Shown here piece after piece: positions 27,557 through 30,899 of a stretch of DNA of 64,000 nucleotides. The notes beneath the pieces were generated by a model, which worked only from the letters and a program-made list of their open reading frames with translations, was not told the DNA's origin and searched no databases. A program made the position numbers and the translations under genes. This DNA comes from Rubrobacter marinus (lineage in GTDB: Bacteria > Actinomycetota > Rubrobacteria > Rubrobacterales > Rubrobacteraceae), in the NCBI RefSeq assembly GCF_011492965.1, contig NZ_CP045121.1:2046001-2110000 (forward strand), in the 5' to 3' direction. Within the stretch, counting starts at the first letter, position 1, and each line of letters begins with the position of its first letter.

Positions 27557-28372
27557 TTGCCGGACCTCCGCTACCACGTCGTCTCCCTGATCTCGGTCTT
27601 CCTCGCCCTCGCCATCGGGGTGCTCCTCGGCATAGCGATGGCGGACAACGGCCTCCTCGACGAGCAGCTGAGGGCCCAGGTCTCCGACATCCGGGCCGAC
27701 CTCGAGGGGCAACGCGCGCGCCTCGACGAGAAGGACGAGCGCATAGCCGAGCTGGAGCAGCGCGCCGCCGGGGACGACGCCATGCTCGCCGGAGTCTCGG
27801 AGGCCGTGATCTCCGGCCGCCTGGAGGGGACGAGCGTCGCCCTCGTCCTCGGCCCGTACGCCGACGAGGGGACCGCCGAAGCCCTCCAGGACGCCCTGGC
27901 CCTCTCCGGCGCCACCCTGACCTCGGTGACGGAACTCGAGCCCCCGGCGCCCGCGACGGGCGGGACTTCCACCCCGGAGGAGCAGTACGCCGAGGAGGCG
28001 GCCGACGTTATCGGCCCCTACCCCGTCACGGAGGGCTTGGCCTCCGCCGGACCCGAGATCGTGGTGTTCCTGGGCGGCGGAAACCCCCCGCCCGAGGCCG
28101 ACGAAGAGACCCTCAACGCGCTCGCCAGCGCCGAGGCGTCGATGTTCCGGGTCTGGCAGGGCGCGAACGTGCGCATCGTCGGCGCCGAAGCCTCCGGCGA
28201 CGGGCGCAGCCAGGTACCTCAGTACAACGACCTCGGCGTCCCCTCCGTGGACAACGCCGATCGACCCGCCGGGCGCGCCGCCCTCGTCCTCCTCGCCGCC
28301 GGCGCCGCCGCGGACGGCGCCTACGGCACGAAAGAGACCGCCTCCGACCCCTTCCCCCCGGTCCCCGGCTAG
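27557..28372 (+). CDS. steB: SteB/MctB-family membrane-anchored protein
   Basis: The 271-residue protein begins with a membrane helix (about residues 7-29, HVVSLISVFLALAIGVLLGIAMA). A coiled coil (about 38-70) and an extracytoplasmic alpha/beta domain with VALVLGPYADEGT and VVFLGGGNPP follow. This is the family of Rv1698 (called MctB or SteB), often annotated as a copper transporter; with SteA beside it, the cell-separation role is more likely. The conserved order would continue to pyrG, but here about 19.5 kb of other DNA intervenes. Confidence 0.82.
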   Translation: MPDLRYHVVSLISVFLALAIGVLLGIAMADNGLLDEQLRAQVSDIRADLEGQRARLDEKDERIAELEQRAAGDDAMLAGVSEAVISGRLEGTSVALVLGPYADEGTAEALQDALALSGATLTSVTELEPPAPATGGTSTPEEQYAEEAADVIGPYPVTEGLASAGPEIVVFLGGGNPPPEADEETLNALASAEASMFRVWQGANVRIVGAEASGDGRSQVPQYNDLGVPSVDNADRPAGRAALVLLAAGAAADGAYGTKETASDPFPPVPG

Positions 28373-28451
28373 CCCGGTAGTCCCTGGAACCCGGAAGGGC
28401 GTAGGCCCCGGATCTACCGTCGGTGGCGTCGGGCCACGGTCGCTCAAAGCT

Positions 28452-28785
28452 TCAGGCTTTCGTCCCGTCCTTCTCCGGCGCGGCCAACCTCGCGACGTCC
28501 GAGGCTACCAAGCGGGTCCCCTCCGCGGCCAGCGCCACGCGAGTATTGGCGATGCCTCGAGCTTCGGCGCGAGTGGCCGTCTGCGCCACCTTCTCCGCCA
28601 CGTCGTTCGCGCGGCGCCTGACGTCCGGACGTTCGGGGTCCTCCGCCAGCGGCTCCAGCGCCCGGGCGAGCTCGTTCAGCGCGAGGGCGAGCCAGCCCGG
28701 CGGCGCGGCGCGCTCCTCCGGCAGGAGACGGAGGGTCGCGAGAGAGGAGCAGGGTGCCGACGGAGGAGGGATCCAGCCCTCCCAT
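28452..28785 (-). CDS. Hypothetical helical protein (frameshifted)
   Basis: Not recognised. Reading leftwards from ATG 28785 gives MGGLDPSSVGTLLLS. After one missing base near 28738 it continues ATLRLLPEERAAPPGWLALALNELARALEPL ... VRRRANDVAEKVAQTATRAEARGIANTRVALAAEG and stops at 28452. The second part has convincing charged/leucine helical periodicity and codon bias, unlike the other frames. It faces steB tail to tail and is the first gene of the accessory block. The 5' end may extend further right, where a stop intervenes. Confidence 0.4.
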
Positions 28786-28956
28786 CCGGGCGTCGAGGCG
28801 CGCGTGCCGGTCCGCCTCCAGCCTGCCGCGGAGCGTCCGGCTCGCGACCTATCCCTGTTCGGCTCTCGAAGGCCCTGTCGGGTCAGCGGGGCTCGTCGTC
28901 GCGCAGGTGCGTGGCGTGGGTTGAGGGGTAGCGCTCGTCGTGGAACAGCTTCGCGG

Positions 28957-29121
28957 TCACGACCCTGCGTCGGGAGGCGGCTGTGGGGAAAGACAGCGGC
29001 GAGCGGGGCTCCCGGGACCGGAGAGATAGACCCACAAGGAGGGGGACGTCGCGGACACGACGCCGGGGCCGAGGGTGCGCGCGGGGTTCATGCCGGCGCC
29101 GGTGGGAGGCCCGACGGGGAC
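28957..29121 (-). pseudogene. Aquaporin/MIP channel, C-terminal fragment
   Basis: Reading leftwards from 29121, the frame gives GPPTGAGMNPARTLGPGVVSA and then WVYLSGPGSPA. This is the second NPA box of major intrinsic proteins with the usual Arg and the following WVY-xGP helix. Nothing of the first five helices is present upstream, and the frame degrades after about 45 residues, so this is a relic. It begins right after the stop of the VPGYG-repeat gene in the same frame, which suggests a deletion joined the two. Confidence 0.65.
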
Positions 29122-29547
29122 CTATCGACCGGAAGCTCCGGCTCCCGTTCTCCCGCCCGCCGAAACGCCTGCTCCCCCGAAGTTCGTCTTGAGGGTCACG
29201 CCGCCATAACCGGGCACCGCGAGACGGAGCCGCCCCGTGTCGCCCGGTACGCTTTCTCCGTTGCGCGGCGAGAGCCGAACCCCGATCACGCGTCGCCCGT
29301 AGCCGGGCACCCGGATCTTCAGCTTCGCGTCCGCCGGAACCTTTCCGCTTCCGTTCTCGGCCGGACCTTCGACCAGAACGGCGCTCAGGGGTGCTCCTCC
29401 GTAGCCGGGTACCTCGTTTCGGAGGGTGATCTTCTCGCCGAGGCCGAAACCCGGGCGGGCCTCCGTCTCGACGCCGGGGTTCTCCCGCCGCTCCGGGCGC
29501 GTGAGCGTCCGGGTGGTAGCGTGCCTCGCGTACTGTCGCTGGTTCAT
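29122..29547 (-). CDS. Small protein with three VPGYG-centred repeats
   Basis: Not recognised. The 141-residue product has VPGYG at residues 46-50, 80-84 and 111-115, each inside a similar beta-rich unit (LRNEVPGYGGAPLSAVL, LKIRVPGYGRRVIGV, LRLAVPGYGGVTLKT) about 31-34 residues long. There is no signal peptide or membrane helix; the N-terminus is basic, with many Arg and Thr. A ribosome site AAAGGA precedes ATG 29547. The last ~17 residues are Gly/Ala/Ser-rich and may be an artefact of the junction with the aquaporin relic. VPGYG resembles the elastin-type VPGxG turn. Confidence 0.6.
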   Translation of the reverse strand: MNQRQYARHATTRTLTRPERRENPGVETEARPGFGLGEKITLRNEVPGYGGAPLSAVLVEGPAENGSGKVPADAKLKIRVPGYGRRVIGVRLSPRNGESVPGDTGRLRLAVPGYGGVTLKTNFGGAGVSAGGRTGAGASGR

Positions 29548-29691
29548 ACCGTCGTCCTTTCGTTTACGGTCTCTACGCTCCCGACCTGCCGGCCGTCTCG
29601 GGAGGACCCGATATGCGACCCAGGTCTCCCGGCGCGGATCGTCGAGGTACTCCGTGGGCTCGCTCGCCGCGCCCGACGGTCAGTCTTCTCC

Positions 29692-30899
29692 CTACGCGGG
29701 CACTTCCTGCGTCCCTTTGTGCGTCTCGGCGGCGTGCGGCGCGCGTCCCAGGATCCCCGCCATCGCGGCGACGGTGGCGCTCAGCGCCACGACGATAAAA
29801 AGGGCCGCCCCGAGCCCGGTGAGCTCGGCGACGAAGCCGATCGCCGAGGGGCCGACGAGGAAGCCGAAGTACCCGGCGGTGGAGACGGCCGCGATCGCCG
29901 TTCCGGCGGGCATCTCGCCGTCGCGCCCGGCGGCGCTCAGCACGCTGGGGAAGACGACCGAGAACCCGGCCCCCGCGCAGGCGAAGCCGATAAGGGCGAG
30001 CACCGGGTGCCCGACCGCCAGGGAGATCCCGAGCCCGGCGGCGGCGAGGGCAGCGCCCGCGCGCACGAGCGCTGCGGGCCGGAAGCTCTTCGCGAGCCTG
30101 TCGCCGCAGAGCCGGCCGGCCGCCATGGTCAGGGAGAAGACGGCGTAACCTGCGGCGGCGAATCCGGGGCCGGACCCCAGCGTCCCGCCGAGGTAGACCG
30201 CGCTCCAGTCCGCCATCGCGCCCTCCCCCAGCAGCACGCAGAAGGCTATGAAGCCGAGCCCCGCGAGCGCGCGGTTCGGCCGCACGAAGGTCGGCCCCTC
30301 CTCTTCGCCCCCGCGATCCGCGCTCGGGGCAGCAGCGCCCTCGAAGAGACGGCGAGCGCGAGCGCGCTCACCACGGCCACGCCGCCGAGGTGCGGCGCGA
30401 GGCCCACCCCGTAGGCGGAGAGGAGCCCCCCGCCCGCGGCGCCCGCGAGGCCGCCCAGGCTGAAGGCCGCGTGGAAGGAGGACATGATCGGGCGCCGGTA
30501 GTCCCTCTCCACCGCCACGGCGTGGGCGTTCATCGAGACGTCCAACGCCCCGTGCCACGCCCCCGCGACGAGCAGGGCCACTACCAGGGCGGGCAGGCTC
30601 TGCGCCAGCGCCGGCAGCACCAGCGAGAGCCCGAAGACCGTACCCGCCACACCCACCACGGGCCGGCTGCCCAGCTTCTGCACCACGCCGCCCGTGAAGA
30701 CCATCGTCGCGAGCGCCCCGCCCGCGAGCGCGAGGAGCGCCAGCCCCAACGAACCCTCGCTCAACCCCAACTCCTCCTGCACCGTGGGGATGCGCACGAT
30801 CCAGTTCGCGAAACCGAACCCGTTAATGAAAAAGACCACGAGCGCGGCCAGACGCGCCCGCTTCAACCTCGCCAGCTCCATCATCTGCTTTCCGAGCAC
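29692..30899 (-). CDS. MFS transporter (one frameshift)
   Basis: A twelve-helix major facilitator. The N-terminal half (VVFFINGFGFANWIVRIPTVQEELGLSEG, GSRPVVGVAG, WHGALDVSMNAHAVAVE, FHAAFSLGG) and the C-terminal half (GEGAMADWSAVYLGGTLG, AGRLCGDRLAKS, GFLVGPSAIGFVAELTGLG) lie in two frames joined near 30330. The style resembles YbjJ-like MFS proteins; the substrate is unknown. GTG 30899 has an AAGGGAG ribosome site. It is divergent from a LacI-family gene, whose operator lies between them, so the transporter is probably under its control. Confidence 0.8.

Follow-up and report, generated by a model that had tools for sequence, protein, structure and literature searches.

A small three-unit protein family of a few Rubrobacteraceae, tentatively read as three beta-hairpins

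An open reading frame (ORF) on the minus strand of the window, the whole 64,000-nucleotide stretch of Rubrobacter marinus DNA analysed here, is in our judgement, and with good confidence, a genuine gene: its homologues have conserved open frames and ribosome sites. The reading that we prefer for its product, and that we hold tentatively, is a family of small, probably cytosolic proteins that occurs in only a few Rubrobacteraceae and folds as three beta-hairpins. The evidence for the family comes from three sequences. The Rubrobacteraceae are known for radiation- and desiccation-tolerant species.

Results

The ORF of this orphan protein lies at 29122..29547 on the minus strand and runs for 141 amino acids plus stop from an ATG start; its assignment draws on the ORF listing, the homologues and the lowest pN/pS. 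A Shine-Dalgarno-like AAAGGA is found 5' of the ATG at approximately 29554..29559 (minus strand), within CGAAAGGACGACGGT-ATG. All three genes have a purine-rich ribosome site ahead of the ATG, which in both homologues is GGAGGT at the equivalent place. The position and the good ribosome site described in the earlier note are thus correct.

The forward frame is free of stops in each of the three homologue pairs, and in all three pairs pN/pS in the ORF frame (0.70-0.72) is the lowest of the six frames. The runner-up (0.73-0.85) is the antisense frame with the common wobble position, and stops are present there. An antisense coincidence, which the earlier note had named as a way for its claim to fail, is refuted by the open minus-strand frame in three homologues and by this ranking of frames. 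The value of ~0.7 points to weak constraint, so that the protein would be fast-evolving. Promoter, terminator and Rfam searches around the gene gave no match.

Two clear homologues were recovered in six-frame searches of relatives, which answers the concern that none might exist. Both belong to other Rubrobacteraceae genera than the window. One, at 45% identity and E 2.2e-16 to the window protein, is a 115-aa ORF of the uncultured actinobacterium CALMWA010000324.1 (genome G013; L025:298-645). The other, at 33% identity and E 2.4e-12, is WP_041339011.1, a 115-aa 'hypothetical protein' (RRADSPS_RS15010) encoded on plasmid 2 of Rubrobacter radiotolerans RSPS-4 (NZ_CP007516.1; contig 2 of genome G012, 149,806 bp); the genome of this strain has been described (PMC4148983). 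When searched from the G013 side, the R. radiotolerans protein is found at 50% identity and E 1.1e-27 and the window protein at E 6.3e-16. The window protein shares with WP_041339011.1 homology across the whole core, the three-unit layout with equal unit order and a Shine-Dalgarno site; WP_041339011.1 differs in its length, in its turns and in being encoded on a plasmid. The G013 ORF, 45% identical in the core, also has a Shine-Dalgarno site and similar turns; in contrast to the window protein, its charge is near-neutral, its N-terminus is shorter and its neighbours are others.

By profile search, the gene is present in 3 of 40 Rubrobacteraceae genomes, representing 3 of 13 genera, where some of the genomes lacking it are incomplete drafts. 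Searching 397 genomes sampled across the phylum gave only those three. When 84,980 species were scanned by pattern, the G013 contig was the sole match; as the scan is strict, absence from the other species is no proof. Viral contigs, phages and plasmids yielded no homologue apart from that on R. radiotolerans plasmid 2. Weak matches in relatives (E 0.004 to 1) were left out of the membership because a selection of them, read in frame, resembled unrelated proteins or chance frames. Likewise, a DNA pattern of two spaced PGYG turns matched the window and G013 genes and gave single matches in genomes G005, G007 and G009, which the profile did not recognise as members.

The window protein contains VPGYG exactly three times, each copy within a 17-residue unit. 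On the minus strand, these are: unit 1, residues 42-58, LRNEVPGYGGAPLSAVL (29374..29424); unit 2, residues 76-92, LKIRVPGYGRRVIGVRL (29272..29322); and unit 3, residues 107-123, LRLAVPGYGGVTLKTNF (29179..29229). The spacings between units starting at residues 42, 76 and 107 are 34 and 31, in agreement with the three-fold repeat of 31-34 residues noticed earlier. Symmetry was scored as the best three-way ungapped self-alignment of each protein against 300 shuffles of the same composition. The window protein scores 104 against a shuffled mean of 39.7 (sd 9.4; z 6.9) and the G013 homologue 76 against 19.1 (sd 8.4; z 6.8), and in each case none of the 300 shuffles reaches the score. The R. radiotolerans homologue, in which the turns have diverged, scores 37 against 25.1, a value reached by 21 of 300 shuffles. 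The three-unit symmetry therefore exceeds chance in the window and G013 proteins only. No tandem DNA repeat was found in the gene, so the similarity of the units lies at the protein level.

Comparison of the nine units from the three proteins indicates which positions are kept. All nine have the first turn glycine and eight the second; the preceding proline occurs in seven and the tyrosine in only six, while unit position 1 and the fourth residue past the turn are mostly hydrophobic. The turns are AAGYG, APGYG and VPGYG in the G013 protein, and AAGRG, LPGLG and VPGHD in that of R. radiotolerans. Because tyrosine, proline and VPGYG itself are not fully kept, VPGYG is one local version of a (P)GxG turn, and it does not hold as the defining feature for which it was first taken. 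Equivalent units of different proteins share a mean of 8.8 of 17 residues, as compared to 5.3 of 17 for different units within one protein; this greater likeness suggests that the triplication predates the split of the three lineages. In the three-protein alignment, G-x-G-x-x-P in the linker that follows unit 1 is invariant, and the core has 24 invariant columns. Neither homologue has the basic N-terminal tail of the window copy or its C-terminal tail, which is rich in Gly and Ala.

The earlier impression that no known family takes this form is borne out among the named families tested: Pfam, PHROGs and PADLOC gave nothing for the orphan protein at E up to 10, and no paper on the family was found in the literature. 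NCBIfam returned only a stray lipase match (E 0.15) in one member, which was discarded. Searching the PDB by sequence gave a best E of 1.3, which is chance, and Foldseek against the PDB, using the better model (G013), gave no meaningful match (best E 2.0). AlphaFold models, built on an alignment of two sequences, reach pLDDT 54.3 and pTM 0.43 for the G013 protein and pLDDT 36.2 for the window protein. In both, the turns of the first two units are flanked by strands, with weaker ones at unit 3. Together, the sequence pattern and this weak model suggest, at low confidence, that each unit is a beta-hairpin. The proposal of a beta-rich protein is plausible on the basis of strands beside the turns in both low-confidence models (pLDDT 54 and 36). 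A beta-solenoid, the more specific form of that proposal, fares less well: in the low-confidence model, the units resemble hairpins separated by long linkers; no rung pattern is seen, no PDB fold match is significant, and the number of units, only three, disfavours a solenoid.

The gene stands in different company at each of its three loci, and no partner gene is common to them. In the window, an MFS gene lies upstream and an aquaporin remnant downstream. On R. radiotolerans plasmid 2, the gene has a LysR regulator on one side and a 65-aa hypothetical protein on the other, beyond which is a PPOX-class enzyme. The neighbours in G013 are a Rieske-type protein and a DoxX-like protein, both named by eye from sequence. 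In genome G005, of the same genus as the window, MctB and the MFS gene follow in the same order, and the orphan gene is lacking. Its DNA homology to the window (82-83%) ends at the end of MctB (~28371) and restarts at ~29737, inside the MFS gene; within the gap (28372-29737, against L086:1160-3680), G005 has genes for an AAC(3)-type aminoglycoside acetyltransferase and an SDR oxidoreductase. Since the flanks are equal but the gene content differs, the site is variable, a state that arose by either gain or loss.

The aquaporin remnant (28886..29121, minus strand; recognised by translation and Pfam) corresponds to the C-terminus with the second NPA motif, GAGMNPARTLGP. It lies outside the orphan gene, whose stop codon it follows without a gap, and is truncated on its 5' side and frameshifted. 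With the window's own residues as query, it matches Pfam MIP PF00230 at E 3.5e-08 over profile positions 179-211 of 222. A further aquaporin probe joined the two remnant frames by a few added bridging residues, so its matches are meaningful over the NPA segment only. The MFS transporter (29692-30899, minus strand) is split by a frameshift near 30300 and intact in G005 (408 aa); the split copy is a pseudogene, or else the assembly is in error there. An open stretch at 28450-28750 (minus strand; LALALNELARALEPLAEDPERPDVRRRANDVAEKVAQ...) is helix-like and without a Pfam match, and may be the tail of a further broken gene.

Discussion

In the three-hairpin arrangement proposed here, each unit would consist of a strand, a (P)GxG turn and a second strand. 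Three such hairpins and their linkers of ~14-18 residues, the first bearing the conserved G-x-G-x-x-P, would pack compactly into one domain behind a variable and probably disordered N-terminal tail; the units would have been distinct already before the three lineages separated. The orphan protein lacks cysteine, a conserved catalytic set is not evident, inspection by eye shows no signal peptide, and the gene is absent from most relatives. For these reasons, we would guess at a non-catalytic accessory or binding protein serving a condition-dependent trait, a view that we hold weakly. A cytosolic accessory or binding role would be the least demanding guess, and with no partner gene common to the three loci, it is without independent support.

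Several alternatives bear on the nature of the protein itself. That the ORF is spurious or the gene decaying, with the repeat an accident of G+C-rich DNA, would fit the adjoining broken aquaporin, the frameshifted MFS gene nearby, the pN/pS of ~0.7 and the tail beyond residue 123 that the homologues lack. This reading is nevertheless very improbable and largely refuted, given open, alignable homologues with ribosome sites in two other genera and a three-unit symmetry that exceeds shuffles. The exact VPGYG motifs would invite comparison with elastin-like (VPGXG)n polypeptides, with which the pentapeptide is shared, and the papers found to contain 'VPGYG' all appear to concern elastin-like or self-assembling peptides. 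However, tandem VPGXG runs, the hallmark of such polypeptides, are missing: there is a single pentapeptide per 31-34 residues, as isolated turns in a putatively folded domain; the residues beside the turns alternate as in folded strands; and the homologues have lost the pentapeptide and its tyrosine. Turn spacing and pentapeptide loss thus disfavour elastin-like behaviour, and a self-assembling or desiccation/heat-responsive polypeptide acting via its VPGYG pentapeptides is scarcely credible. A nucleic-acid-binding role, such as that of a nucleoid or stress factor, in which the basic protein would contact DNA or RNA with its hairpin faces and N-terminal tail, is unlikely. Nucleic acids are often bound by small beta-barrels, and the window protein has a pI of 11.05 and a net charge of +10.6 at pH 7 (core, +5.8). 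Charge varies in the family, however: the whole proteins carry just +0.5 in G013 and +3.6 in R. radiotolerans, the cores of these homologues only +0.8 and +0.9, and neither has the long basic N-terminus. No family or fold match in Pfam, NCBIfam or Foldseek speaks for this role, and the earlier suggestion of binding through the basic N-terminus falls because charge and tail are both unconserved.

Other alternatives concern how the gene travels. It is doubtful, with some likelihood left to the idea, that it is cargo of a mobile or plasmid-borne island, for instance an accessory gene with an anti-defence, antitoxin or resistance-associated role. In its favour, a 149.8-kb plasmid carries one homologue, the distribution is patchy across genomes and genera of the family, and G005 carries other genes at the equivalent site. 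Against this, phages, viral contigs and other plasmids hold no homologue, PADLOC finds no match, no adjoining recombinase or toxin gene was recognised, and for the 65-aa neighbour of the R. radiotolerans copy no counterpart was seen in either other genome. In addition, the divergence of the protein (33-50%) is not far from that of MctB across the same genera (45-52%), so vertical descent with repeated loss would fit too. A bolder version of the three-hairpin reading, in which a new domain fold of three pseudo-symmetric (P)GxG-turn hairpins, so far of Rubrobacteraceae, serves as a transferable stress-protective or ligand-binding module, is improbable.

Orphan genes of this lineage-restricted kind are common among bacteria, which makes the find a modest one without a function. 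The orphan protein is undescribed but ordinary: a lineage-restricted small family with an unusually clear three-unit architecture. What was an isolated 'hypothetical protein' becomes a small undescribed family with defined structural targets, and if the hairpin reading is true, it would offer a tractable small repeat domain.
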